Source: Clostridiales bacterium
GTDB taxonomy: Bacteria > Bacillota > Clostridia > HGM11327
Assembly: GCA_015056475.1 (NCBI GenBank)
Contig: SVGF01000005.1
Span: 1 to 42,823 of the forward strand
Direction of reading: 5' to 3'
DNA length: 42,823 bases
A model generated the notes under the pieces. That model ran no database searches. It was not told where the DNA came from and was given only the letters and a program-made list of their open reading frames with translations. The position numbers and the translations under genes are program-made. Of this stretch, positions 2,662-42,823 are shown in pieces (position 1 is the stretch's first letter; each line of letters opens with the position of its first letter).

Positions 2662-3726
2662 ATGTCAATCGGCACAAATATCAAGAAAAGAAGATACGAA
2701 CTCAGAATGTCGCAAAAAGAACTCGCCAATGCTTTAGGATATAAAACCCACTCAACCATTGCCAAAATAGAAGCCGGCGAGAACGACGTATCTCACAAAA
2801 AGCTTGAACGCTTTGCAGAGGTATTAGACACCACTCCCGAAGCCCTTATTTCAGGAAACTTTACAGACTTTTCTTCCAAATCGGATTTCAAAACAAAAGA
2901 GCCCGACACTTCAATAATTATTCCGGATCCACAAACTGATGAAGGACCAATAACAAAAACCGCCGCTATTATTCTGGCTGGCGGTAAATCCGGAAGAAAC
3001 AACCAAAACATACCCAGCCAATTTATCAATATTAACGAAAAACCAATGCTTGTTTATAGCACCGAAGCCTATCAAGCACACCCTTCAGTTGATGACATTT
3101 ATATTGTATGCCTCAAGGGCTGGGAAAATATTGTTAAGGCATATATCAAGCGATATAATCTCACAAAAGTCAGAGCTCTTATTGCAGGAGGTGCCAGCGG
3201 AATCGAATCCCTAAAAAACGCAATCAATTATATCAAACCTCGGTATACCCCTGAAGACATGATCATTATTCAAGAATCCACCCGTCCAATGGTCAATACT
3301 GAAACTATTTCTAAGCTCCTGCAAGCAAGTTCTGAAGTCGGAAGTGCTACTATATCTCACACAATGAACGAATATGTACAATTTTATGTAAATAATCATT
3401 CCGAGGTTAATACATATAAAAACAAAGTCAATTATGATGATGACTTAAATTCTAACATTAATGCACTCCCTCACAATAAATCATCTAACGTAACATACGT
3501 TAATCGTAATTCCATTGTTGCTTTGCAATCACCCGAGGCCCACCGTCTTTCACTTATACTCGAAGTGTTTGAAACTGCAAAAAAGCAACAACACCAACTC
3601 TCTGAATCTTGTTTTACAATGCTTATGTACAATTTAGGGTACAATATTAATTTTATCGAGGGTGGAATGAATAATATTAAGATTGTCCGTAAAGAAGATC
3701 TAATGATGTTTAGTGCATTAGTATAA
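2662..3726 (+). CDS. XRE-family HTH regulator fused to an IspD/TarI-like cytidylyltransferase domain
   Basis: N-terminal HTH (MSIGTNIKKRRYELRMSQKELANALGYKTHSTIAKIEAGEN) followed by an IspD-like fold: AIILAGGKSGRNNQNIPSQFININEKPMLVYS, IAGGASGIESLKNAI, IQESTRPMV, NNIKIVRKEDL. Confidence 0.8.
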   Translation: MSIGTNIKKRRYELRMSQKELANALGYKTHSTIAKIEAGENDVSHKKLERFAEVLDTTPEALISGNFTDFSSKSDFKTKEPDTSIIIPDPQTDEGPITKTAAIILAGGKSGRNNQNIPSQFININEKPMLVYSTEAYQAHPSVDDIYIVCLKGWENIVKAYIKRYNLTKVRALIAGGASGIESLKNAINYIKPRYTPEDMIIIQESTRPMVNTETISKLLQASSEVGSATISHTMNEYVQFYVNNHSEVNTYKNKVNYDDDLNSNINALPHNKSSNVTYVNRNSIVALQSPEAHRLSLILEVFETAKKQQHQLSESCFTMLMYNLGYNINFIEGGMNNIKIVRKEDLMMFSALV

Positions 3727-4938: not shown

Positions 4939-6183
4939 TTACTTCTTTTCTATGCGCAGGATCTCCATCTGACCCGGTGCGAGCCAAATTTCTTCGCGGA
5001 TGCAATAAGCATCGTTCTTATTAGAGTAACCATTGGTAGTGCAACCGTTGAGCTGTGCGCCGTTGTAGTAAACATAATGAACGTTCTTTACGGTTTCGTC
5101 AAACTCAAGAGTGATGTTACCCGCGTCCTTACGGTTATTGTTAACAACCGCAACGTATTCATAACCGTCATCGCCGTCAAACACGCTGACAATACCGGGA
5201 ATGGGATCGTAGTCGTAGCATCCAAAGAAATCCGTGTTGCAATAAGCTCTCTTGATGCCTGCATATCCCGCATCAGGGAATGCAGGGAATCCGCCGTAAC
5301 GCTTTGTGATAAAGAACGACTCTTTAATGTGAAGCTTCATCAAAAGCTTTGCGTGATGGATGGTAAATCTCGTCTGTGCACGCTTCATGCCACGGTAATA
5401 CTTGCCGTTTGGCTGACCGTATTCGTCGATAGGTGAGCCGCGATAGTCCATGGCCATGAGCTTATCGTAAAGTCTGAACCAGAAAATACCCGTGCAACCA
5501 AGCGCTGCAGCCGTATTTATCTGCCAGATGTAGTCCACCTCCTCAGGTGCCTGGAATCTGAAGTGTGCGGATGAAAGCAACGTTGCCCAGCAGTCAAGTC
5601 CGTACTTTCTGCAAACGGACGTAGTTGTGTGCATATGCTGGAAGTATTCCTCAATGCCTCTCTCCTCGGGCTCCATCTGTGAATAAGTTCCAACGCCGTG
5701 AACGTGCACGCCTGCACCAGCGATCTTGTCGCCAAGACCGGGGACCTTTCTCGTGTCGCCGGGTTCAAGGAAGGGATTCAGCTCCGGAGCCTCCTCCATC
5801 ATCACCTTGAGCACACCTACAAATGCATCAACTCTGTCGGGTCCGGGTTCTTCACCGGGATAGAAGCCCAAAACTGCGGGATGCTTGCCGTACTTTTCGT
5901 ATCTTGCCTTAAATGCCTTGCGGTATGCTTCCTCACCGTGTCTGTGGTAGTAGCCGTCCTCAACCTCAGGGAATCTCAATATGATCTTCATATTGTTTTT
6001 CTGAAGCTCATCCATAAACTTTGGTAACTCCGCTTCAAGCTCTGCTTCGCTGTTTGCATAAGGCATCATAACAACGTTCATTCCGAGATCCTTCCAACGC
6101 GCTATCTCGGTTCTGCCGTGTTCTTTCAAGTTTCCGTAATTCCAAAAGCTTAAAACAAAGCTTTCTTCTCTATTATAAGCCAT
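4939..6183 (-). CDS. Glycoside-hydrolase-like (TIM-barrel) protein, paralog 3 of 3
   Basis: 414 aa; shares GFYPGEEPG, YGxDCxxTLLSSAHxRFQAP, EVDYIWQINTAAxxGCTGIxWFRLYDKL, YRGSPIDEYGxPNGxYYxGMKRAQTRFxIHHxKLxMKLH with the next two ORFs. Confidence 0.7.
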   Translation of the reverse strand: MAYNREESFVLSFWNYGNLKEHGRTEIARWKDLGMNVVMMPYANSEAELEAELPKFMDELQKNNMKIILRFPEVEDGYYHRHGEEAYRKAFKARYEKYGKHPAVLGFYPGEEPGPDRVDAFVGVLKVMMEEAPELNPFLEPGDTRKVPGLGDKIAGAGVHVHGVGTYSQMEPEERGIEEYFQHMHTTTSVCRKYGLDCWATLLSSAHFRFQAPEEVDYIWQINTAAALGCTGIFWFRLYDKLMAMDYRGSPIDEYGQPNGKYYRGMKRAQTRFTIHHAKLLMKLHIKESFFITKRYGGFPAFPDAGYAGIKRAYCNTDFFGCYDYDPIPGIVSVFDGDDGYEYVAVVNNNRKDAGNITLEFDETVKNVHYVYYNGAQLNGCTTNGYSNKNDAYCIREEIWLAPGQMEILRIEKK

Positions 6184-6195
6184 ATTTATCTCCTG

Positions 6196-7416
6196 TTACT
6201 TAATACGGTAGATCTCCATCTGTGCGGGAGCAAGCCAGATCTCACTCTGGAGGTTTTCTGAGCCATCGATCTTGTCGAGGCGGATCTTACCTGCGCTATC
6301 ACCGTTGTAGTAGATATGCTCTACTGATTTAACTGCCTTATCAAACTCAAGAGTAATGGAGCCTGCATCCGTACGGCTGTTGTTCATTACTGCAACGTAA
6401 TCAAAACCATCCTCACCCTTAAAGAAGCTTACAATGCCTGGAATAGGATCCTTGTCGTAGTAACCAAAGAAAGTATCACAGCTGTATGCTCTCTTAACAA
6501 GACCGTGACCTGCCTCGGGGTATGCAGGGTAACCGCCGTAACGCTTTGTGATGAAATACGTTGTGTCGTGGTGGAGCTTCATGATGAGCTTACCATGATG
6601 GATGTTAAATCTTGTCTGAGCGCGCTTCATGCCGCGGTAATATTCGCCGTTGGGCTCGCCGTATTCATCGATTGGTGATCCACGATAATCGTCTGCAGTG
6701 AGCTTATCGTAAAGCCTGAACCAATAGATACCTGTGCATCCGCAGATAGCAGCTGTGTTGATCTGCCAGATATAGTCAACTTCCTTGGGAGCCTGGAAAC
6801 GGTAATGTGCGGATGAAAGGAGCGTGGGCATACAGTCCATGCCGTACTTTTTACAAGCCTTCATCTGTGCGCACATGAGCTTGAAGTAATCTTCAGTGCC
6901 TCTCTCCTCCGGCTCCATCTGTGAATAGTTGCCGAAGCCGCTTACCGGCACGCCTGTTGAAGCAACCTGCTCCATATGAGAATCATTTGCACCAAGGTCA
7001 ACAAAAGGAACCTTGTCGGGTGCTTCTTCAAGCATAATTCTCAATACCGAAGCAAAATTGTTGATGACGGAGCTACCGGGTTCTTCGCCGGGGTAGAATC
7101 CCAAAACTGCGGGATGCTTGCCGTATTTTTCATAAATTTCGCGGAACTTTGCGCGGAATACCTCCTCGCCGTTTCTTGCATAATAGCCTGCGTCAACCTC
7201 CTCAAAGAATAACACAGTCTTCAATCCGTATTTTTGCAAAAGATCAAGGAACTGAGGGAGATTCTCCTCAACCTGCTTTGTTGAGCAAAACAAAGGAGCC
7301 ATAGCTACGTTCAAGCCGAGGTCCTTCCACATTTTTACATCGTTTTCCGTGCAAGCGCTGTAGCTGTTGTAATTCCAGAAGCCAAGCACAAAACTATCAT
7401 TTCTCTGATATGCCAT
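6196..7416 (-). CDS. Glycoside-hydrolase-like (TIM-barrel) protein, paralog 2 of 3
   Basis: 406 aa; long identical blocks with the 7432..8652 ORF. Confidence 0.7.
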   Translation of the reverse strand: MAYQRNDSFVLGFWNYNSYSACTENDVKMWKDLGLNVAMAPLFCSTKQVEENLPQFLDLLQKYGLKTVLFFEEVDAGYYARNGEEVFRAKFREIYEKYGKHPAVLGFYPGEEPGSSVINNFASVLRIMLEEAPDKVPFVDLGANDSHMEQVASTGVPVSGFGNYSQMEPEERGTEDYFKLMCAQMKACKKYGMDCMPTLLSSAHYRFQAPKEVDYIWQINTAAICGCTGIYWFRLYDKLTADDYRGSPIDEYGEPNGEYYRGMKRAQTRFNIHHGKLIMKLHHDTTYFITKRYGGYPAYPEAGHGLVKRAYSCDTFFGYYDKDPIPGIVSFFKGEDGFDYVAVMNNSRTDAGSITLEFDKAVKSVEHIYYNGDSAGKIRLDKIDGSENLQSEIWLAPAQMEIYRIK

Positions 7417-7431
7417 AGCTAATTACCTCTC

Positions 7432-8652
7432 TTACTGAATTCTCAATATCTCCATCTGTGCAGGAGCAAGCCAGATCTCTTCCTTTAAGTAGTCAAGATC
7501 TCTTGTGCCTTCAAGCAAGAGGCCTCTTGTCTGCTCGCCGTTGTGGTAAACGTATTCAACCTTCTTTGTAGCCTTATCAAACTCAAGCGTAATGGAGCCT
7601 GCCTCTGTACGGCTGTTGTTCATTACTGCAACGTAATCATAGCCATCCTCACCCTTAAAGAAGCTTACAATGCCCGGAATGGGAGCCTTGTCATAGTAAC
7701 CAAAGAAAGTATCACAGCTGTATGCTCTCTTAACAAGACCGTGGCCTGCCTCGGGGTATGCGGGATATCCACCGTAACGCTTTGTGATAAAATATGTTGT
7801 ATCGTGATGGAGCTTCATGATGAGCTTGCCATGATGAATATTGAATCTCGTCTGAGCGCGCTTCATGCCCTGGTAATATTCGCCGTTGGGTTCGCCGTAT
7901 TCGTCGATGGGTGATCCGCGGTAGTCCATAGCAACGAGCTTATCGTAAAGTCTGAACCAATAGATACCTGTGCATCCGCAGATAGCTGCTGTGTTGATCT
8001 GCCAAATATAGTCAACCTCTTTAGGTGCCTGGAAGCGATAATGCGCTGATGAAAGAAGTGTGGGCATACAGTCCATGCCGTACTTTTTGCAAGCCTTCAT
8101 CTGTGCGTTCATAAGCTTGAAGTAATCTTCTGTACCTCTCTCCTCCGGCTCCATCTGTGAATAGTTGCCAAAGCCGCTTACCGGCACGCCTGTTGAAGCA
8201 ACCTGCTCCATGTGAGAAGCATTTGCACCAAGGTCAATAAAAGGAACAAGCTCGGGTGCTTCCTCAAGCATTATCTTGAGAGTTCCTGCAAAGCTGTCTA
8301 TAATATCACCACCGGGTTCTTCACCGGGATAGAAGCCCAAAACTGCGGGATGCTTACCGTACTTTTCATAGATTTCGCGGAACTTTGCTCTGAATGCATC
8401 AGCACCGTAGGAAGCGTAATAACCTGCGCCGATCTCGTTGAACAAAAGCACTACCTTCATGCCATGCTTCTGAAGCTCATCAAGGAAAGCGGGTAATTCT
8501 TTTTCGATCTGCTCGGGTGAGCAGCCCATGGGCATCATGGCTGTGTTCAAGCCAAGATCCTTCCATCTTTCAACTTCGCTTGCGCCACCTGTTTTAAGAT
8601 CGTTATAATTCCAAAAACCCAGCACAAAGCTTTCATTTCTTTTATATGACAT
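7432..8652 (-). CDS. Glycoside-hydrolase-like (TIM-barrel) protein, paralog 1 of 3
   Basis: 406 aa; directly downstream of potC on the same strand. Confidence 0.7.
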   Translation of the reverse strand: MSYKRNESFVLGFWNYNDLKTGGASEVERWKDLGLNTAMMPMGCSPEQIEKELPAFLDELQKHGMKVVLLFNEIGAGYYASYGADAFRAKFREIYEKYGKHPAVLGFYPGEEPGGDIIDSFAGTLKIMLEEAPELVPFIDLGANASHMEQVASTGVPVSGFGNYSQMEPEERGTEDYFKLMNAQMKACKKYGMDCMPTLLSSAHYRFQAPKEVDYIWQINTAAICGCTGIYWFRLYDKLVAMDYRGSPIDEYGEPNGEYYQGMKRAQTRFNIHHGKLIMKLHHDTTYFITKRYGGYPAYPEAGHGLVKRAYSCDTFFGYYDKAPIPGIVSFFKGEDGYDYVAVMNNSRTEAGSITLEFDKATKKVEYVYHNGEQTRGLLLEGTRDLDYLKEEIWLAPAQMEILRIQ

Positions 8653-8677: not shown

Positions 8678-9568
8678 TCAATTTCTTTCGTCATTGACAT
8701 TATAATCAAAATTCTGATTATTTTCCGTTCTCCTCATTTCAAATGCAAGCTCTTCATTCTTTGCCATCTCAATATTTGCATTGCGCTTCTTTTTACCCTT
8801 AGTTTGGTAAGTATTAATGAGTATGAGCAATAACAAAACCGTAACGAACATCAATGTTGAAAGTGCGTTGATAGAAGGATTGATGCCGCGCTTTGTCATG
8901 GAGTAAATGAGTGTTGAAAGGTTCATTACGCCGTTACCCGTTGTAAAGAAGCTTACAACAAAGTCATCGATCGAGAGTGTGAACGAAAGCATAAATCCGC
9001 TTACAATACCCGGCATTATCTCGGGAATAATTACCTTCCAGAGCGCTTGCGTGGGTGTGGCACCAAGATCCTGTGCAGCCTCGTATTTTGAAAAATTAAC
9101 TTGACGAAGCTTTGGCATTACCGAGAATATTACGTACGGTATGCAGAACACCACGTGAGATATAAGCATGGTAACGAAGCCTCGTCTTACGTTTGCAAAC
9201 ATAAAAAGCATCATAAGCGAAAGACCTGTAATGATATCGGGGTTTACCACGGGAACGTATGTGATGTTCATTATAAGGTTCTTTGAGAATTTTCCGTAGC
9301 CGTGAAGACCAACCGCCGTTATTGTACCCACCACGGTTGAAATTGCAGCTGCCAATATAGCCACAACAACCGTATACATGAGTGCGTTCATCATTTTTTC
9401 ATCGCCGAAAAGCTGTTCATACCACTTGAAGGTAAAGCCCGTCCATGAACCAAGCTGTTTAGATTCGTTGAACGAGTATATTATCATTATTATGATAGGA
9501 GCGTACAGGAACAGGAGCATAAGTCCCAGATACAGCTTTTGTATGGGGTGCTTGAAAACGCCTTTCAC
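8678..9568 (-). CDS. potC: ABC transporter permease, PotC family
   Basis: Permease motif EAAQDLGATPTQALWKVIIPEIMPGIVSG; YSFNESKQLGSWTGFTFKWYEQLF. Confidence 0.9.
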   Translation of the reverse strand: MKGVFKHPIQKLYLGLMLLFLYAPIIIMIIYSFNESKQLGSWTGFTFKWYEQLFGDEKMMNALMYTVVVAILAAAISTVVGTITAVGLHGYGKFSKNLIMNITYVPVVNPDIITGLSLMMLFMFANVRRGFVTMLISHVVFCIPYVIFSVMPKLRQVNFSKYEAAQDLGATPTQALWKVIIPEIMPGIVSGFMLSFTLSIDDFVVSFFTTGNGVMNLSTLIYSMTKRGINPSINALSTLMFVTVLLLLILINTYQTKGKKKRNANIEMAKNEELAFEMRRTENNQNFDYNVNDERN

Positions 9569-10395
9569 ATCAACGTACCTCCTTCGTGATCTTTATCAAA
9601 TCTGTTGAGGATGAACATGGACACAAAAATTATAGCGAACAGCACCAATGCAAGTGCCGCACCCTTGTGCCAGCCGTTCAACGCCTCTATGAAGTAATAC
9701 TCTATTATGTTACCTATAAGGTAATACTTACCGCCGCCCAAAAGCTTCGATACAACGAACGTTGATACCGCGGGCATGAATACCATTACAACACCCGAAA
9801 CTACGCCGGGAAGGCTCAACGGGAAAATTACCTTGCTGAATACGTTGACCTTGTTTGCACCCAGATCCTGCGCAGCCTCTATAACTCTGGGGTTTATCTT
9901 TGCAAGAACCGTGTGTATCGGCAATATCATAAACGGCAGGAAATTATATACCATACCAAACATTACCGCAAAGTCCGTAAACAATACCTTTGTAGGTGCA
10001 AGACCAAACCACGCACGGATATTGTTAAGCCAAGTAACGTCTTCAAAAATATATCTCCATGCGTAGGTCCTCAGCAAAAAGTTCATCCACATAGGAATAA
10101 CAAACAAGAAAAGCAACAAGGGCTTTTCGCTGAAATGCTTACCCGAAAGTATGAGTGCAATGGGGTATGCAAGCACAAGACAAATGATCGTGCAAACAAA
10201 CGCCATTTTAAGCGACTTGACTATAAGATCCATATTATCCTTTGTAAACACGTTTTTCATGTTTACCAAAGAAAAAACCACCGTGCCATCATCAAGCGTA
10301 TCGGTAAATGCGTAATACCCTATCAAGAACAAGGGTATCACTATAAAAATACACATCCAGACGATATAAGGTATCGCCAACCATTTTTTCTTCAT
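9565..10395 (-). CDS. potB: ABC transporter permease, PotB family
   Basis: EAAQDLGANKVNVFSKVIFPLSLPGVVSG; 4-nt overlap with potC. Confidence 0.9.
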   Translation of the reverse strand: MKKKWLAIPYIVWMCIFIVIPLFLIGYYAFTDTLDDGTVVFSLVNMKNVFTKDNMDLIVKSLKMAFVCTIICLVLAYPIALILSGKHFSEKPLLLFLFVIPMWMNFLLRTYAWRYIFEDVTWLNNIRAWFGLAPTKVLFTDFAVMFGMVYNFLPFMILPIHTVLAKINPRVIEAAQDLGANKVNVFSKVIFPLSLPGVVSGVVMVFMPAVSTFVVSKLLGGGKYYLIGNIIEYYFIEALNGWHKGAALALVLFAIIFVSMFILNRFDKDHEGGTLM

Positions 10396-10413
10396 TCCGA
10401 CTACCTCCCGTTA

Positions 10414-11457
10414 TTATGACTTTTTCATAATATGGATATTATCGGGAAGGACCTTCATACCGATATTGCTGCCCTCGGGGCTGAGCACCGTGCTGTGGAT
10501 GAGCCACGTATTGCCGCACTCACCGTCAACTATCATTTCGTAATGAACGCCCTTGAATATAGCAGTTCTTACCTTACCGCATATAACGTCGCTAGAAGGC
10601 TGGCAGACCTCAATATCCTCAGGACGGATAACAACGTCAACCGCCTCGTCCTTATCAAATCCGCCGTCAACGCATTTGAATCTGTGACCGCAATATTCCA
10701 CGTCAAAATCGTTATGCATAATACCGTCAACGATATTACTTTCGCCGATGAATTTTGCAACAAAGGCATTCTTGGGTTCGTTGTATATATCAACGGGTGA
10801 GCCGTACTGCTGAACGATACCATCCTTCATAACTGCGATATTGTCGGACATGGTAAGTGCCTCCTCCTGATCGTGTGTTACGTACACGAATGAGATACCC
10901 AACCTCTTTTGCATCGCCTTGAGCTCAAGCTGCATGCTCTGACGCATTTTGAGGTCGAGAGCGCCGAGAGGCTCGTCAAGCAAAAGGAGCGCAGGCTCGT
11001 TTACAACAGCTCTTGCAATTGCTATTCTCTGTTGCTGACCGCCCGAAAGCGCACCGACGTCCCTGTTTTCATATCCAGAAAGATTGACCATTTTCAATGC
11101 ATCAGTTACCCTTGCCTTTATCTCACTTTTTCCTACGCCTTTGATCTTCAAGCCGAATGCGATATTGTCAAACACGTTCATATGTGTAAAAAGCGCATAG
11201 CTCTGGAATACGGTGTTGAGGTTTCTCTTGTGCGGAGGAATATCGTTTATCCTCTTTCCCTCAAAATACACGTTACCCGAAGTAGCATTCTGAAATCCTG
11301 CGATTATCCTCAGAGTCGTTGTTTTACCGCAACCCGAGGGACCCAAAAGTGTAAGAAATTCGTTGTGCTTTACAGAAAGGTTAAGATTATCCAAAACCGT
11401 GAAACCGTCTTCGTAGGTCTTGGTTACGTTTTCTAATCTAATGATGTGGTCATCCAT
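10414..11457 (-). CDS. potA: ABC transporter ATP-binding protein, PotA family
   Basis: Walker [40 protein letters not shown]; start set at [13 protein letters not shown]. Confidence 0.92.
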
Positions 11458-11489
11458 TGTAAAATATCCTCTTATATCAATACTCGCGC

Positions 11490-12023
11490 TCAAAAACTGG
11501 GTGGCGTGGACACCCAAATAAATTTCAAAGGTCTTTTATGTGTGTTCTCTACGTAATGCGGCTTTTCAGCTGCAAAGTAAAAGGACATGTTCTTCTTTAC
11601 GGTGTAGCATCTGTCACCGATGTGTAAATCTGCAATGCCGTCGAGCACGTAGCCCCACTCCTCACCTGCGTGAGGACTCTCCGTGGCGGTTTTTGCGCCC
11701 TCCTCCAGCTCTACAAGTATGGGCTCCATATCGTTTCTTTGCGAATCCGGAACAAGCCACGTAATAGTAACGTCGTCATTTTTGCTGACGAACATATCTC
11801 CTTCGTCAAAAACCACTTGTCTGGCGGATTCGTTTGAAAAAAATTCACCCAAGCTTGTACCCAGGCACTGCAAAATGTCTGCCAAAGTAGCGATGGACGG
11901 AGAAGTTACCTCCGTTTCGAGCTGTGAAATATACCCCTTCGACAGCTCCGTTCTGTCTGCAAGCTCCTGCTGTGTCAATCCGTTCTTAACGCGCAGGTCC
12001 TTGATCTTTGCACCAAGCTCCAT
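11490..12023 (-). CDS. XRE-cupin transcriptional regulator (PuuR-like)
   Basis: [49 protein letters not shown] plus C-terminal cupin ([25 protein letters not shown]); heads the pot operon. Confidence 0.85.
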
Positions 12024-15126: not shown

Positions 15127-17607
15127 TTATTTTTCTCTGGTGCCTGTTTCATAAAGCACAGCACAGCCTACTATACCTTCATTCCAATCTGTGAGCTGCT
15201 TGCCCGCACTGGTTGTGGGTAGTTCAGATATTTCATTGATTGGTTTGAATATTTGGCTCAGATCCTCCTTAATTAATATTATATTTTCTTCACGCAGTGT
15301 GTTTAATGTATAAGCACCTATCAATATTTTACCGTTGGAGCCGTTCTTATTAAATTTAAATATACTTATACCTACTCCGCCCCTCTTTTGTGATGCAATC
15401 TGCGTGATGGGCACTATCTTTCCGTATGCACCATCAGTAACGGCTACTACCTTAGATTTTGGTTCAACACCACATACAGATACTATACTATCTCCGTCTT
15501 TTAGCTTAATAGCTCTTACACCTTTTGAAGCTCTGCCCATGGTGCTGATCTGCTCCGTTTCACACCTGAGTGACATTCCGTTTTGTGTAACGAATAGCAC
15601 TTCATTTGTATTTGCTATATCTACTTTTATCAATTTGTCATCATCTGCAAGTTCATGTGCAACTATCTTACTTCTTGACGTATTGAATGCTGTCAATTCA
15701 GTAAGCTTGCACATACCATTCTTTGTCACAAACAGTAATTTACCTTGACTATAATCCTTAGTTGCGAGCGCACCTACGATTTTTTCTCCTCTTTCAAACG
15801 TAGGCAATACGTTTGTTATCGGCACACCTCTCTCCTTCCACTTTGTCTGTTTGATAGAGGTGGGACTAATAGTATAATTCATACCGTCAGCTGTGAACAA
15901 CAGTATTTTAGCATCGGTAGACGTATGCATTACGTATTCAACGTAATCGCCACTACCAACGTCCATTTCTTTGTAATCGCCGTTAGATCTGTTAAAATGA
16001 GTTGCATCAATTGACTTTATTTCCTGATTGTGAGTTATCACAACAACTACATCCTCAGCTACTATAAATTCATCCTCACTAAAGGTCTTTTCTTCTTTAG
16101 TCGATACGATTTCGCTTCTTCGTGAATGTCCGTATTTTGCCTTAATTTCCAGCAAATCCTTTTTAATTACAGATTTTAAGACCTTCTCAGAGGCGAGAAT
16201 TTTTTCCAATGCGGCTATCTGCTTGCATAACTCCTCAAATTGCGCCTTAAGCGTTAATATTTCCAGGTTCGTAAGTCTTTGTAATCTCAGATCAAGTATC
16301 GCCTGAGCCTGTTCCCTGCTGAAACCAAAGTTTTTCATGAGGTTTTCTCTTGCATCGGACGGATTTTTTGATCCTCTAATTGTTGCGATCACCTCATCAA
16401 TTATGCTGCAAGCCTTTATCAATCCCTCTTGAATATGCTTTTCTGCCAATGCTTTGTCGAGCTCAAATCGTGTTCTTCTTGTAATTACTTCTTTTCTGAA
16501 GTCTATATAGTAGCTTATGCAGTCCTTAAGATTAAATCTTACAGGTTTGCCATTTGCAACAGCAACCATATTTGCTGCAAAATTATACTGCAGATCGCTG
16601 TATTTGTAAAGATATGCAAGTATCTTGTCAGTATCAGCGTCCTTTTTTACCTCTATAACAGCTCTTGTACCAGATTTGTCTGATTCATCCCTTATTGCAA
16701 CTACGCTTGTCAGAACGCTCTTTTTATCTTCGCAAAGCTGAGCTATTCTCTCAAGACACTTTGCTCGGTTGACTTGATATGGAAATTCATCTATTACTAT
16801 TGCTTTTTTTGTAGCGGTGGTATCCTCTATGTGCGTTTTTGCGCGAATTACTACCTTTCCTTTGCCTGTCGTGTATACCTTTTCAATGTCGCTCAAGTCT
16901 TTCATTATTAATCCGCCCGTAGGAAAATCCGGTGCAGGAATAATTTTCATGAGATCTTTTGCTGTGCATTCAGGGTTGTCAATTTCGTATATACATCCAT
17001 CGATTGTTTCTGCGAGATTATGTGTGGGAATTTCCGTTGCAAAGCCTACTGCGATGCCCGATGCGCCGTTTACCAGCAAATTTGGGAATCCTGCGGGTAA
17101 AAGCTCAGGTTCTTTTAGCGTATCATCAAAATTCAGCTTGAATTGAACTGTATTTTTGTCGATATCTTTAAGCATATCCGTTGCTAAAGTACTCATTCTC
17201 ACCTCAGTATACCTCATAGCTGCAGGCTGATCACCGTCAGGAGAACCAAAATTACCCTGACCGTCAACAAGTACCTCTCCCATATTAAAATCCTGAGCCA
17301 TTCGTGCCATTGCGTCATACACAGAAGTATCGCCGTGCGGATGATATTTACCGAGTGTATCACCGACAACTCTTGCAGATTTTCTGTGAGGCTTGTCAGG
17401 ATCCATTTTAAGTTCCCACATTGTGTATAAAATACGTCTTTGAACGGGTTTTAATCCATCTTCGATCCTTGGTAGTGCACGTTCGAGTATTACGTACTCA
17501 GAATATGGCATCATTGAGCTGTGCATTACGTCCCCAATGGGCTGTTTTATGAGCGTGCCCGATGCTTCGGGATCAATTACAGTAATTTTATTTGTCTTTT
17601 TAGCCAT
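15127..17607 (-). CDS. Type IIA DNA topoisomerase subunit A (GyrA/ParC family)
   Basis: [48 protein letters not shown] (active-site Tyr), degenerate GyrA-box-like QKRGGVG. Confidence 0.9.
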
Positions 17608-17621
17608 TTTATTTACCTCTC

Positions 17622-19598
17622 TTACTTATTCCCCGTTGATTTAGCATCAACCATATCCTCATACGCGTCACGCTTATTAAAATTTGCGTATTTCGTTATA
17701 TAATCGTGTCTTGCGTCGGCTTTATCACCCATAAGCACTTCAATCTTACCCTCAGCTTCCTGAACGTCGCCGATCTGAACTCTTATCATTCTTCGCTTTG
17801 CAGGATCGAGTGTAGTTTCTCTGAGCTGATCAGGATTCATCTCACCAAGACCTTTGTATCTCTGAATCGTATAATTCTTTCCAAATTCCTCAGTCGCCAT
17901 TTTTAATTCTTCATCCGTGTAGGCATAATACATTTTATCGCCCTTTGTTACCTTATATAACGGTGACAGACCAATGTATATGTGACCTTCTTTAATAAGA
18001 TCCGGAAAATATCTGTAAAAGAACGTAACCAGAATTGCTCTTATGTGTGCGCCGTCCTGGTCTGCATCGGACAGAATTATTATCTTGTCGTAATTTAGCT
18101 TAGAAATATCAAACTTATCGCCAACACCTGTTCCCAGCGCATACAATATTGTTTTATATTCTTCGTTCTTCATTACCTGCTCAAAATTGGTCTTTTCTAC
18201 GTTGAGCGGCTTACCTCGCAAGGGTAAAATTGCCTGGAATTCTCTGTTTCTACCTAATTTTGCTGTACCGCCGGCTGAATTACCCTCAACAATGAACAAT
18301 TCATTGATCGCCTTATTATTTCCCGAACAATTTGCAAGCTTTCCAACCAAAACTGAGTTTTCCACACCCTTTTGTTTTGCACCCTCGCGCAGTTTTGTTG
18401 CAGCGTTGCTGATAGCTTTTCTGATTTGAGCCGTTTTGATACATTTTTCCGTAATTTTTTTAGAAACATCATCATTTTGCGGTGCTTCCATAAATTTTGT
18501 GAAGTTTTCTACAATAACACTTTCAACAGCTGCCCTTGCTTCTGTATTATTCAGTTTTTCTTTAGTCTGACCCTCAAACTGAATATCGCGCATTTTGATG
18601 GACACTACCGCAGTCAACCCCTCGCGCACGTCCGCACCTGTAAGCGATTCCTTTTTATCCTTTAACAGATTAAACCTATATGCAAAATCATTGATAGTTC
18701 TTGTAATACCACTTCTGAAACCTGTTTCGTGCGTGCCGCCTTCAGCGGTGTTGATATTGTTTGCGTACGAATACACTATATCACTGTTTGAGTCGTTATA
18801 TTGGAATGCGGCTTCTACCTTTATATTATTTTTTTCGCCGCTGATGTATATAGGCTCTTTGAAAAGTACGTTTTTATCCGCATTGATGTACTTAACGTAA
18901 TCACTCAGTCCACCTTCAAAACAGAATTCTTCTTCCTTTTTATCAGCTCTGTCGTCCTTAAGTTTAATTTTTAACCCGCTATTGAGATACGCAATATCTC
19001 TGATTCGCTTTGATATCAGATCATAATCAAAATTTACCGTGTCAAAAACCCTGTCATCGGGTAAAAATGTGACCATAGTTCCTTTTTTGCGCGTATTACC
19101 AATAACTTCTACGCCTGTTACAGGCTTACCGGACGTAATATTACCCTTCTTATCTGAAACACTTTCAAATCTCTGACAATATTCTTTACCGTCCCTATAA
19201 ACCCTTACTTCAAGCCATCTCGAAAGAGCATTAACTACAGAAGCACCTACACCGTGAAGACCACCGGAGAAAGAATAATTTGTATAGTCAAATTTACCGC
19301 CTGCGTGCAATACCGTAAAAATTACCTGAACAGCAGGTATTTTTAGTTTTGGATGGAGATCAACCGGCATACCGCGACCGTTATCATAAACACTCACGCT
19401 ATTGTCGCTGTTAATTGTTATTTCTATAGCATCGGCATATCCGTTTATAGCTTCATCAACCGCGTTATCCACTATCTCAGTCAACAAATGATGCAGACCT
19501 CTCACAGACGTTGAACCTATATACATCGCGGGTCTTTTTCTTACCGCCTCAAGACCTTCCAATACTACGATATTATCCGCCGTATAATTACTTGACAT
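17622..19598 (-). CDS. Type IIA DNA topoisomerase subunit B (GyrB/ParE family)
   Basis: [83 protein letters not shown]. Confidence 0.92.
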
Positions 19599-19618: not shown

Positions 19619-19634
19619 TGTTTCACGTGAAACA
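19619..19634. promoter_or_regulatory. parS site (ParB/Spo0J binding site)
   Basis: TGTTTCACGTGAAACA, perfect 16-bp palindrome matching the bacterial parS consensus. Confidence 0.92.
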
Positions 19635-20080: not shown

Positions 20081-21427
20081 ATGAGTGAACCTCAAAAAAA
20101 TCTATGGGAAACAGCAAAGATCGCTCTAAAAGGCGTAGTTGCACCGGTAATGTTCAGAGCTTTTATATCAGAAACCGAAGCTGCACTTTTGATACAGGAT
20201 ACGCTTTACGTTAAAGCTAATAACGAATATACCCGAAATTTGTGCAACAATACTTTTGGCGACGTATCATTGAGCGCTGTAAGATCGATCAACAGATCCG
20301 TAGAAAACGTGGTTTTTATGGTACAAAGCGAGATAGATACCCTTATTGCAGCCCAAAAGACCACAAAAGAAGAAGCTGAACCCGTAGTAACGACAAATCT
20401 TAAAACTTTTGAAACTTTTGTCGTGGGTAAAAACAGCCAATTTGCACATGCTGCAGCATCAGCCGTTGCAGAAGCTCCGTCACAATCATTCAACCCTTTA
20501 TTCATTTACGGTAAATCAGGCGTTGGTAAAACACATTTAATGCAGGCTATATGTGCAAGAGTTAACGTTGCACACCCCGAGCTTAAAGTTCTTTACGTAA
20601 CAAGTGAGGAGTTTACAAGCGACTTTGTTGAAGCCGTGCGCTTTAACAAGGACAACAATTTTCAGAAAAAAGACAATTTCAAAAATAAGTACAGATCTGT
20701 TGATATATTACTTATTGATGATATTCAATTTATCGCAGGTAAGAAGGAAACACAGGAAGAATTCTTCAATACGTTCAACACTCTTACCGGTGCAAACAAG
20801 CAGATCGTTATAACGAGCGACAGACATCCTCACGAGATAGAAACTCTTGAAAAGAGGATCCAGTCCCGCTTTGATAACGGTCTTATATGCGATATCCAAC
20901 CTCCGGATTACGAAACCCGACTTGCTATTTTGCAGGAAAAATCCGTTGAAATGCTCATGGATATCGACAATGATTCATTAGCTTTCATCGCAGAATACTA
21001 TACCGAGGGTGACGTAAGACAGCTTGAGGGTATATTAAAAAAGCTTTCATTCACAGCACAGCTTTCAAACTGCACTATCGATCTCCAGTTCACACACCAG
21101 ATACTCGGTATTGAAGAATACGTTCCCACAACTACCAACGTTACTATTTCAAAGATCAAACAAACTATATCCAACTATTTCAATATAAGTCTGCTTGACC
21201 TTGAATCCCAGCAAAGAAAGCATACCGTTGCGTTTCCTCGCCACGTAGCCATTTACATGACAAAAAAGCTTTTAGGTTGGGAATTAAAAAAGATAAGTGA
21301 GGAATTTGGTGGCAGAAACCACTCCACCATCATCAATTCACTCAACGTTGTAGAGAAGGCCCTTGCCACAGACCCTCAAAAAAGGGATATAATAGACAAG
21401 GTAGAGGATATGATAATCAACGGTTGA
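20081..21427 (+). CDS. dnaA: Chromosomal replication initiator protein DnaA
   Basis: FIYGKSGVGKTHLMQAI, DILLIDDIQFIAGKKETQEEFFNTFN, FDNGLICDIQPPDYETRLAIL; domain IV AFPRHVAIYMTKKL...FGGRNHSTI. Confidence 0.95.
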   Translation: MSEPQKNLWETAKIALKGVVAPVMFRAFISETEAALLIQDTLYVKANNEYTRNLCNNTFGDVSLSAVRSINRSVENVVFMVQSEIDTLIAAQKTTKEEAEPVVTTNLKTFETFVVGKNSQFAHAAASAVAEAPSQSFNPLFIYGKSGVGKTHLMQAICARVNVAHPELKVLYVTSEEFTSDFVEAVRFNKDNNFQKKDNFKNKYRSVDILLIDDIQFIAGKKETQEEFFNTFNTLTGANKQIVITSDRHPHEIETLEKRIQSRFDNGLICDIQPPDYETRLAILQEKSVEMLMDIDNDSLAFIAEYYTEGDVRQLEGILKKLSFTAQLSNCTIDLQFTHQILGIEEYVPTTTNVTISKIKQTISNYFNISLLDLESQQRKHTVAFPRHVAIYMTKKLLGWELKKISEEFGGRNHSTIINSLNVVEKALATDPQKRDIIDKVEDMIING

Positions 21428-21556
21428 CGCTTATTATCAAATAATAATCAACACAAAAATTGTCGAATAAAAAGGTAAAAATTATTGTTTTCAACATATG
21501 AACAATTTTTTAGTTCGACTTTTAGACAAATTTTTTTAAGAAAGCAGCTCAAAATT

Positions 21557-22645
21557 ATGAACTTTTCGTGTACACAACAGGATCTTATAAGTGCTCTAAG
21601 CACGGTGCTCAAGTCAACGTCAAAAAAGCCTTCACCGTTTCAGCAGTATATTTATATAGAAGCAACCCAATATAATGTAAGACTTATTTGCTCAACGTCT
21701 GACAATACTCTCATCTGCACTTTACCTGCTCAGATACACGAGCCGGGAACGGTGCTTGTCCCGACGTCAATATTCAGGGATATAATATCAAAACTTCCCG
21801 ACGTTACCGTAAATATCGTAGTAAACGAGAAATGTCTGATGAATGTTAATTATACAAATATGAAATATTCAATTCAATGTATATCAGCATCCTCTTACTC
21901 ATTTTTGGACGATATCGACGGGCAGATATCATTTGACATTAAAACCGAAGATATTCGACGCGCAGTATCTCAAACGTATTTTACCGCATCCTTGCAGGAA
22001 ACACGCCCAATATTGACGGGTATTTTCTTTAAGTGCGACAACGGTTCTCTTGATCTTGTAACCACCGACGGCAGCAGAGTTTCCGTAAAAACGTTAAAGC
22101 TTAATAATAACGTAAGCTTTGAATCAGTCATACCCGCAAGATTTCTTCACGACGCACTCAATTCTTCATTTATTAATGCCGAAATTACAAATATCTCCAT
22201 AAACGATAAATATATGAAGCTTTCAATGGGCAATACGACCGTTATTACAGGCGTCTTAAGTGGAAAATACATCAATTATAAGAGCATTATTCCCACGGAT
22301 GCCTCAACGGTTATGATTTGCAACCGAAATGAATTCCTCAATATTATCGAAAGAGCTTTTTTGCTTGCGGATGAAGATCTTTATACTGTGCGCTTTGACG
22401 TTAATTACAGCAAGCTTTTTGTTTCGTCAAACAGCGTTCAGGGCGAAGCTTTTGAGGAGATATACGTTCAGACAAGCGGAAATCCGGTCACAATCGCCTT
22501 GAATTCAAAGTCATTTATAGAAATTTTAAGAAATATTGACTACGAACAGCTTGTTTTTGAGTTTACAACGGGCACAAGAATATGTAAGATAAAGCCGCTT
22601 GAGGCTGACGACATAATATATCTTATTTCGCCCATAAGAATTTAA
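21557..22645 (+). CDS. dnaN: DNA polymerase III beta subunit (sliding clamp), copy 1, more divergent
   Basis: MNFSCTQQDLISALSTV..., IIPTDAST, YLISPIRI C-terminus; ATG at 21557. Confidence 0.85.
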   Translation: MNFSCTQQDLISALSTVLKSTSKKPSPFQQYIYIEATQYNVRLICSTSDNTLICTLPAQIHEPGTVLVPTSIFRDIISKLPDVTVNIVVNEKCLMNVNYTNMKYSIQCISASSYSFLDDIDGQISFDIKTEDIRRAVSQTYFTASLQETRPILTGIFFKCDNGSLDLVTTDGSRVSVKTLKLNNNVSFESVIPARFLHDALNSSFINAEITNISINDKYMKLSMGNTTVITGVLSGKYINYKSIIPTDASTVMICNRNEFLNIIERAFLLADEDLYTVRFDVNYSKLFVSSNSVQGEAFEEIYVQTSGNPVTIALNSKSFIEILRNIDYEQLVFEFTTGTRICKIKPLEADDIIYLISPIRI

Positions 22646-22789
22646 TTTGAAAACCCTTGATGTTTTCAAACAATCAACAAAAGTATCAACGTTGATTTTT
22701 TCGCATTTAACTGTAACACTTTAAGTTATGAACATTTCAACGCTTTCTAATACCACAAACACTTATTTAAACTAAAGAGGATAACTACT

Positions 22790-23884
22790 ATGAAATTCAC
22801 GTGCTTACAACAGGATCTTATATCGTCTATTCAGACTGTGCAAAAGGCAGCTACTTCCAAAGGTACTTCGCCAATATATCAGTACATTTACGTTGAAACA
22901 CTTAACGACAGTATAAGACTTGTAGCAACTAATCAGACGCAAACCATCGCAAACACTATTCCTGCACAGATAGATGAGCCGGGAAAAATACTTCTTCCCA
23001 CTTCACTTTTCAGAGATATCATATCAAAGATGCCATCCGTCATGATCGAAATGAGATCAAACGACAGAAATCTTATGACAGTTAGCTACGTAAACATGAA
23101 GTATGCTATTCAGGGTATGCCCGTTGGTGAGTTTACGTTCATGGATGACATTGCATACGACGTTCAGTTTGACGTTAAAGCAGAAGAACTCAAAAAATAC
23201 GTTGACAGAACTTTCTTCACAGCTTCAACGGAGGAAACAAAGCCAACGCTCAACGGTATTCTTCTTAAATGCCAGTCGGGCAAGCTTGACGCAGTAACGT
23301 CGGACAGCTTCAGACTTTCTCTTGCAAGGGGGGATATAGGCTGTGACGTCAGCTTTGAAATAATCGTTCCCGCAAGAATACTTCACGAGATACTCATGAA
23401 CGCCAACGATGATGATGAAAATATCAACGTAAGCTTCAATTCAAAATATATTAAGATAGTTATAGGATCAACTACTCTCGTTACGGGGCTTATAAGCGGT
23501 AAATTTATTAATTACGAGGCGATAATTCCTAAGGAATACAAAACGAGAATGACGTGCAGCAGACAGCTTTTGCTTTCAATTCTTGAAAGAGCTGTGATCC
23601 TTTCCGACAGAAATACTCTTTATCCCGTAAGATTTGAGATAGGCTTCAATAAGCTTTTGGTTTCTTCAAACAGCGAAGCGGGCGAGGCTTTCGAGGAAAT
23701 AAACGTAAGCACTGACGGTGACAATCTCACCATAGGCTTCAACTCAAAACAGTTTATTGAGCTTTTGAGAAATGCTGAGCATGAAAATCTGGTATTTGAA
23801 TTCATTTCACCCACAAGGACTTGCGTTATAAGACCGGTTGAGGATGAAAATATGACGTACCTTATAACACCTCTCAGACTTTGA
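22790..23884 (+). CDS. dnaN: DNA polymerase III beta subunit (sliding clamp), copy 2
   Basis: MKFTCLQQDLISSIQTVQKA..., INYEAIIPKEYKT, YLITPLRL C-terminus; clear paralog of copy 1. Confidence 0.92.
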   Translation: MKFTCLQQDLISSIQTVQKAATSKGTSPIYQYIYVETLNDSIRLVATNQTQTIANTIPAQIDEPGKILLPTSLFRDIISKMPSVMIEMRSNDRNLMTVSYVNMKYAIQGMPVGEFTFMDDIAYDVQFDVKAEELKKYVDRTFFTASTEETKPTLNGILLKCQSGKLDAVTSDSFRLSLARGDIGCDVSFEIIVPARILHEILMNANDDDENINVSFNSKYIKIVIGSTTLVTGLISGKFINYEAIIPKEYKTRMTCSRQLLLSILERAVILSDRNTLYPVRFEIGFNKLLVSSNSEAGEAFEEINVSTDGDNLTIGFNSKQFIELLRNAEHENLVFEFISPTRTCVIRPVEDENMTYLITPLRL

Positions 23885-23902: not shown

Positions 23903-24121
23903 ATGGAAAAGGTTTATTTTGTGGATGAATACGTAACGCTGAATCAGTTTCTTAAAATTGCGGGTATTGCTTATACCGGCGGTGAAGGCAAGGAAATGAT
24001 ACAGGAGGGGCTCGTTTTTGTAAACGGCGAGCAGGAATTAAGACGCGGCAAAAAAATACGTAAGGGTGACGAAATAACGATCTCGGGCTCCGATATTGTT
24101 TACGTTGCTGAGAATGAATAA
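23903..24121 (+). CDS. yaaA: S4-domain protein YaaA/RlbA-like
   Basis: 72 aa S4 domain (TLNQFLKIAGIAYTGGEGKEMIQEGLVFVNGEQELRRGKKIRKGDEI) between dnaN and recF, the typical position. Confidence 0.9.
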   Translation: MEKVYFVDEYVTLNQFLKIAGIAYTGGEGKEMIQEGLVFVNGEQELRRGKKIRKGDEITISGSDIVYVAENE

Positions 24122-24150: not shown

Positions 24151-25251
24151 TTGTATATTTCGGGATTAACTCTCACAAATTTCAGAAATTACGAATACAG
24201 AGAGTTTGAATTTGATTGCAATACAACTGTTATAACAGGTGATAACGGCGTCGGCAAAACAAATATTGTTGAGGCTATTGTATTTTTGTCCTCATTGCGC
24301 TCTCACAGGACGAATCAGGATACTGATATGATCATGTTTGATTCGCCGTATGCGGTGCTCATGGGCGAATTTGTGAGCTCAAACGGCACTCAAAAGCTCA
24401 ATATACTCATCAATGAGGATAACTCAAAAAAGATAAAATACAACAATCAGGATGTAAAAAGGGTTGCAGACGTTGTGGGTAAGCTCAACACCGTAATATT
24501 TTCTCCCGATACGCTTGAAATAATCAAGGAAGGTCCCGACAAGAGAAGAAAATTTCTTGACGTTGCAATATCAAAGATCGACAGACGCTATTTCAGCGCT
24601 CTGCAAATGTATAAAAAGGTCATAAGGCAAAAAAATAAGCACTTGAAGCATTTTGAAGGCGATGATAAATTTTTGGTTCTTGACACATACGATCAGCTAT
24701 TGGCGCAAAACGGCGGCTATATCGAATACAAGAGAAGATTTTTCATAGATAAGCTTAACGAGCTTTTATGTGATATTCATTCAAGACTGACGGGTACAAA
24801 AAATGACGTTTACGTTGAATTTGAATCCCAGGTCGAAACGTCCGACAGATCTCTTGACGAGATAATAAATGATTATGCCGAAATGCTTGCGGATGTACGC
24901 TTTAAGGAGATCGAAAAGCGTTCATCGGTAAAGGGTGCGCACACGGATGATATTGCATTCTACGTAAACAGAAAAAACGCAAAGAAATATTGCTCTCAGG
25001 GTCAGCAGAGAATACTCTTGCTTTCGGTGCTTTTTGCGCAGACTGATATAGCACTTTCCGAAACTGGTGAAAGCCCCGTCGTGCTTTTGGATGACGTTTT
25101 GAGTGAGCTTGATAATAAAAGAAAACAGCTCGTGCTTGATTACATAAGCGACTATCAGACATTTATTACCACAGCGTCAAATGACGATCCGCTTTTGAAT
25201 ATGATAAACGATTACACACTCATAGACCTTTCTGATGAGGATATTATTTGA
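24151..25251 (+). CDS. recF: DNA replication/repair protein RecF
   Basis: TTG start; LTLTNFRNYEYREFEF, GDNGVGKTNIVEAI, CSQGQQRILLLSVLFAQ, LLDDVLSELD. Confidence 0.93.
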   Translation: MYISGLTLTNFRNYEYREFEFDCNTTVITGDNGVGKTNIVEAIVFLSSLRSHRTNQDTDMIMFDSPYAVLMGEFVSSNGTQKLNILINEDNSKKIKYNNQDVKRVADVVGKLNTVIFSPDTLEIIKEGPDKRRKFLDVAISKIDRRYFSALQMYKKVIRQKNKHLKHFEGDDKFLVLDTYDQLLAQNGGYIEYKRRFFIDKLNELLCDIHSRLTGTKNDVYVEFESQVETSDRSLDEIINDYAEMLADVRFKEIEKRSSVKGAHTDDIAFYVNRKNAKKYCSQGQQRILLLSVLFAQTDIALSETGESPVVLLDDVLSELDNKRKQLVLDYISDYQTFITTASNDDPLLNMINDYTLIDLSDEDII

Positions 25252-42676: not shown

Positions 42677-42680
42677 CAAC

Positions 42681-42823
42681 TAAGTGCGCCTTTCGGCGCG
42701 TGAAGTTTGCTCCGCAAGTGAAGTTGTCCTGCGGACAGTGAAGTTTCTGCGGAAGTGAGCGGCGCACTTAACTTCATTTTATGCGCAAGCATAATACTTC
42801 ATTATGCCGTAAGGCATAACTTC
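42681..42823. repeat. Multi-hairpin array with TGAAGTT spacers, truncated at window end
   Basis: Outer stem TAAGTGCGCC/GGCGCACTTA enclosing small hairpins, then TTATGC-GCAA-GCATAA and TTATGCC-GTAA-GGCATAA; TGAAGTT x3, AACTTCA-type inverse copies. Confidence 0.85.

Follow-up and report, generated by a model that had tools for sequence, protein, structure and literature searches.

The bacterial beta clamp, DnaN, is normally a single homodimer common to every polymerase and repair factor, and because all of these partners share the one homodimer, its functions are hard to mutate separately. In archaea, heteromeric PCNAs consist of paralogous clamp subunits that serve different partners within one cell. 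These clamps are trimers and belong to another protein family; their likeness to the bacterial locus described below lies in the use of paralogous clamps.

Precedents for paralogous beta clamps exist. Bacillus anthracis harbours a second chromosomal beta clamp gene, dnaN-2, whose product is about 40% similar to DnaN-1 and has been suggested to replicate yet lack some repair functions (PMC3290774). The review in question presents dnaN-2 simply as a second gene and makes no mention of a tandem arrangement (PMC3290774). The producers of griselimycin and mycoplanecin carry an extra DnaN paralog, GriR or MypR, beside the normal DnaN; the genes lie by transposase genes, with mypR inside the antibiotic cluster (PMC10817943). 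In Escherichia coli, a betaC/beta159 heterodimer in which only one cleft works allows growth if Pol IV is absent (PMC3022782). The two subunits are engineered alleles of one gene in a laboratory construct, whereas the clamps considered here are natural paralogs whose mixing is hypothetical. Neither Bacillus DnaN-2 nor GriR/MypR is described as a pair of tandem sisters at the origin, and in the literature searched we found no description of a tandem dnaN or of a second sliding clamp at the origin.

Here we describe two adjacent dnaN genes at the replication origin of an uncultured genus of gut Clostridia. As in Bacillus (PMC3290774), a second chromosomal beta clamp occurs in a Gram-positive with PolC and DnaE. 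Unlike Bacillus DnaN-2, a protein absent from our tree, the two clamps are sister paralogs that adjoin each other at the origin. Like GriR and MypR they include an extra DnaN paralog, but their origin position is syntenic genus-wide and no antibiotic cluster was noted nearby.

The dnaN pair and its surroundings

The window, which is the whole stretch of DNA analysed (42,823 nucleotides), is one complete contig (G000:C37) from a metagenome-assembled genome of 1.99 Mb and 79% completeness. The replication initiator gene dnaA (448 aa; positions 20081..21427, + strand) scored 427.7 bits with TIGR00362 (cut-off 343.9). A spacer (21428..21556) separates it from dnaN copy 1 (362 aa; 21557..22645, +), which is followed by a second spacer (22646..22789) and by dnaN copy 2 (364 aa; 22790..23884, +). 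Next come yaaA (23903..24121, +), which encodes an S4-domain protein, scored 77.3 bits with TIGR02988, slightly under the cut-off of 84.75, and adjoins recF, and recF itself (24151..25251, +; TIGR00611, 325.4 bits, over the cut-off). Both clamp genes are intact open reading frames, copy 1 running from an ATG at 21557 to a stop codon at 22643-22645 and copy 2 from an ATG at 22790 to a stop codon at 23882-23884. Their products are 49% identical from end to end and each matches all three DNA_pol3_beta Pfam domains, with TIGR00663 (dnaN) scores of 212.8 bits for copy 1 and 237.2 bits for copy 2 (cut-off 137.65). No other dnaN match was found in the focal assembly. A preliminary description of the locus had reported two full-length dnaN paralogs between dnaA and yaaA, and these results bear it out. 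The motifs that it quoted, IIPTDAST and TDGSRVS in copy 1 and IIPKEY and TSDSFRLS in copy 2, are also correct for the focal genome, as is the (S/T)P(I/L)R(I/L) C-terminus in both copies.

The spacers hold several conserved elements. In the dnaA-dnaN1 spacer, TTTTCAACATATGAAC, placed by alignment at about 21488-21503, is conserved in all three species of the genus, with an exact TTTTCAACAT at 21488; the dnaN1-dnaN2 spacer holds TTATGAACATTTCAAC at about 22726-22741, again by alignment. A TTTTCAACATnTnAAC-like element is common to the two spacers in all three species (L041 and L042 included); its enrichment is not an independent test because the motif was chosen after the spacers had been inspected. 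It looks like an operator or a degenerate DnaA box. The leader of copy 2 is strongly conserved from about 22740 on, with a AAAGAGGATAA ribosome-binding site, and contains AAAGAGGATA in all three species. The Shine-Dalgarno sequence of copy 1 is weak in the focal genome, whereas in G001, another genome of the genus, it is good. Judged from these sequences, the spacers fit a segmental duplication that would have included the spacer, and a copy 2 that may be steadily expressed.

Several other features were observed in the window. Type IIA topoisomerase genes (gyrB/gyrA-like; 15127-19598) lie divergently upstream of dnaA, not after recF, and score just under the equivalog cut-offs of the gyrase and topoisomerase IV models alike. 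Between gyrB and dnaA is an exact parS site, TGTTTCACGTGAAACA (19619-19634), for which 0.03 occurrences are expected by chance, allowing up to two mismatches; in G001 and in the third genome, G002, the residues that such a site encodes, FHVKH, occur in a predicted N-terminal extension of gyrB. On the - strand, at 4939-8652, a tandem array of three paralogous genes (406-414 aa; products beginning with MAYNREESF, MAYQRNDSF and MSYKRNESF) adjoins an apparent polyamine-type ABC transporter (8678-11517). A protein of 354 aa encoded at 2662-3726 looks, from sequence only, like a helix-turn-helix domain fused to an IspD-like nucleotidyltransferase, and a Gut-1 RNA (RF01706, 52.2 bits; gathering threshold 50) is found at 42677-42749, directly downstream of a tRNA-Arg.

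Distribution of the pair

The order dnaA-dnaN1-dnaN2 was found in all three assembled genomes of the genus, each of them metagenome-assembled. The two additional genomes are RGIG9120, from water deer rectum, and SRR15057928_bin.10; G001 and G002 were assembled independently. Their dnaA orthologs are 75% (G001) and 85% (G002) identical to that of the focal genome. In G002, dnaN2 is followed by recF, and in G001 the contig ends soon after dnaN2. A sister genus is represented by the family's fourth genome (G003), an assembly with neither dnaA nor dnaN that is thus uninformative on the pair. Since the same pair in the same order is present in independent assemblies, the duplication predates the genus and is no assembly error; the duplication artefact that the preliminary description had allowed for is contradicted by the identical order in the two other genomes.

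Outside the genus, we surveyed 391 genomes of the class and 399 of the phylum, about 770 different genomes, most of which have a single dnaN. Every genome with at least two matches was inspected, and no tandem dnaN pair was present outside the genus among the roughly 770; the matches were on separate contigs, far apart, or fragments of one gene. An unlinked second dnaN occurs in a few to several percent of the surveyed genomes. Two of these unlinked genes, L096 (G683) and L097 (G580), encode an identical protein in two different families, and because of this identity they suggest a mobile element that may carry a clamp gene.

Phylogeny and evolutionary rate

The phylogeny of both copies was examined in a tree of the clamps of the three species, 27 clamps of the class and that of E. 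coli. Copy 1 formed one clade (support 100/99) and copy 2 another (89/85), and the two were sisters with support of 100/100. The sister relationship did not change when 16 unlinked second clamps from the phylum were added. We therefore place the duplication within this lineage and ahead of the split of the three species. The possibility that copy 1 is a clamp of the unlinked DnaN-2 type was ruled out by the tree containing the 16 such clamps and by the tandem position at the origin.

The copies have diverged at different rates. Orthologs of copy 1 are 55-60% identical across species and those of copy 2 73-81%; copy 1 orthologs are thus diverging about twice as fast, and their terminal branches are about 2.5 times longer. 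Values of dN were 0.34-0.41 for copy 1 and 0.15-0.20 for copy 2, against dS values that were high or saturated; by codon position, differences are greatest at the third in both copies (0.59-0.66 and 0.48-0.61, respectively). The codon-position pattern and the comparison of dN with dS indicate purifying selection on both copies, which rules out a pseudogene, and copy 1 has neither stop codons nor frameshifts in the three species. With distant outgroups, Tajima's relative-rate test did not separate the copies (median p 0.29-0.47), so that the evidence for a rate difference comes from the comparison within the genus. Both copies sit on a long stem. In comparisons with the class, DnaA of the lineage gave 40.6% (class median 55.4%) and DnaN 28.9% (38.7%). 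The long stem is therefore lineage-wide, and a clamp-specific acceleration before the duplication was ruled out, since DnaA is equally divergent from the class.

That the pair is an assembly artefact, a pseudogene, or a phage or plasmid insertion might be entertained for a window that is a single contig of an incomplete metagenome-assembled genome. The shared arrangement in two independent assemblies and the intact reading frames under purifying selection leave this explanation a negligible probability. A phage or plasmid origin was further rejected because no relative was found in viral contigs and phage and plasmid clamps are only ~27-30% identical, compared with 49% to copy 2.

The faster divergence of copy 1, together with its weak ribosome-binding site in the focal genome, would also be expected if it were a relaxed back-up clamp that raises dosage or duplicates the same functions and evolves under weaker selection. 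B. anthracis dnaN-2 can be deleted without a phenotype (PMC3290774). We consider redundancy of this kind unlikely, as the cleft changes described below are nearly fixed across species only 55-60% identical, a pattern poorly explained by drift alone, and as the reading frame has stayed open in all three.

The peptide-binding cleft and partner proteins

Pocket residues were taken from PMC11139829 in E. coli numbering and compared with those of the 27 class clamps. At position 175, all 27 have Tyr or Phe (E. coli has His); copy 2 has Phe, Phe and Tyr in the three species, with Phe in the focal genome, and copy 1 has Ser, Ser and Thr. At position 362, Leu in 25 of the 27, copy 1 always has Ser and copy 2 has Thr, Thr and Leu. 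Position 323, Tyr in 25 of the 27, is Ser, Ser and Lys in copy 1 and Gln, Gln and Tyr in copy 2. The focal copy 1 thus carries Ser at all three positions. Among the 16 unlinked second clamps, position 175 is aromatic or His in 13 and never Ser or Thr. At position 177 the copies differ as well, with Val in copy 1 and Leu in copy 2. Cleft residues that are kept include R152 (Lys in copy 2), L155, R176, P363 and R365.

The preliminary description had treated copy 2 as carrying simply the usual motif, and here it needs correction. The usual form in the 27 Clostridia clamps is [LVI]DG[YF]R[LM], with Gly at position 174 in 26 of them; copy 2 has Ser174 in all three species but keeps the aromatic residue, whereas copy 1 has retained the Gly but no aromatic residue. 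Because each departs differently from DG[YF]R[LM], neither is the usual one. The cleft of copy 2, although mostly preserved, is also altered by Thr362 and Gln323 in two of the three species, so that the division between the copies is not clean. The change from KE to TD in copy 1 is not fixed, as G001 has IPKEAST, and neither position is among the published pocket residues (PMC11139829). In each of the three species, both copies have lost the basic residues lining the channel at E. coli positions 73, 80 and 205, Arg or Lys in nearly all class clamps.

The canonical clamp-binding motif is Q-phi-x-[L/M]-F (PMC11139829). The PolC C-terminus of the genus has QIEFF (G001) or QIELF (G002), and DnaE contains QISIF; these motifs are near canonical, and an ordinary cleft should therefore still be needed. 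On the basis of its residues, copy 2 is a better candidate than copy 1 to supply it. PolC, DnaE and full-length HolA were found once each per genome, further matches to the HolA model being weaker and shorter, and a second replisome is thus not supported. With regard to sporulation, Spo0A is present in three of the four genomes of the family, and GerW-like and SpoVB-like genes of the window score slightly below and below their model cut-offs, respectively; a spore-related role of copy 1, suggested in the preliminary description along with one in repair, is possible.

Taking into account that clamp paralogs such as GriR and MypR confer resistance (PMC10817943), and that the changes in copy 1 fall in the pocket occupied by such compounds, the altered cleft might let replication survive a clamp-targeting peptide antibiotic or phage inhibitor. 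We regard this as very improbable. The window genes that were read have housekeeping, sugar and transport functions, and neither a biosynthetic cluster nor a transposase was seen among those read around the pair; the pair is vertically inherited at the origin, while griR and mypR adjoin transposase genes, and the partner motifs are still canonical.

Fold and dimer interface

An AlphaFold2 model of copy 1, built from an alignment of only eight sequences, had a pLDDT of 83 and a pTM of 0.80, and superposed on the Clostridioides difficile clamp 7ybd with a TM-score of 0.93. Failure of copy 1 to fold, which the preliminary description had named as grounds for rejection, is thus not what the prediction indicates. 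Its 49% identity to copy 1 implies that copy 2 would have the clamp fold as well.

Interface contacts were taken from PMC11139829. Every one of the six sequences has Lys 105 and Glu 304, and five of them have Glu 301, with hydrophobic residues at 78, 272 and 273. To judge from these residues, homodimers and heterodimers would be allowed alike. We considered whether the two copies form an obligate or preferred heterodimer, an asymmetric ring with one cleft for the polymerase and one for a different partner, analogous to the heteromeric PCNA of archaea. The genes are adjacent and both are maintained, the polarity of the interface matches in the two copies, and, since E. coli tolerates a heterodimer with a single working cleft (PMC3022782), a mixed ring is mechanistically plausible. 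However, the same residues also permit two homodimers, and Asn301, found in copy 1 of G001 only, and a hydrophobic residue at 298 in copy 1 provide no clear complementarity. A mixed ring modelled as a read-through fusion of both copies gave a pTM of 0.27 from a four-row alignment, too poor to judge ring closure. An exclusive or preferred heterodimer therefore stays a tentative alternative.

Discussion

Our results are best explained by an old tandem duplication, after which copy 2 served as the main replicative clamp and copy 1 became a subfunctionalised second clamp, a reading to which we assign a probability of roughly 60%. The dnaN gene, probably together with its upstream spacer, was duplicated before the known species of the genus diverged. 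Copy 2, with its conserved leader and ribosome-binding site, its slow evolution and the aromatic residue kept in its cleft, would have become the main replicative clamp, this residue anchoring PolC and DnaE by their canonical Qxx(L/I)F motifs. Copy 1 would be a second working clamp, a three-domain half-ring that presumably depends on the one clamp loader used by copy 2 as well, and may build a ring of its own as a homodimer or combine with copy 2 in a ring that has one ordinary and one altered cleft. As copy 1 lacks the aromatic residue at 175 and is polar at 362 and 323, ordinary motifs should be bound less tightly or other partners preferred. The subfunctionalised clamps of the preliminary description stand in that the paralogs are old, selected and full-length, with cleft differences fixed in the lineage, as expected of subfunctionalisation; the expression of copy 1, its ring formation and its weaker canonical binding or altered partner choice are what we infer.

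A tandem pair of sister clamps at the origin, one with an altered cleft, suggests that tasks normally falling to one essential replication protein have been divided. Two origin clamps with different clefts represent a natural separation of function. If the heterodimer were true, the two binding sites of one bacterial clamp ring would be genetically separated. From the pair one would learn which partners depend on the canonical cleft, whether mixed clamps are workable in a bacterium, and whether gene duplication can bypass clamp-targeting antibiotics.
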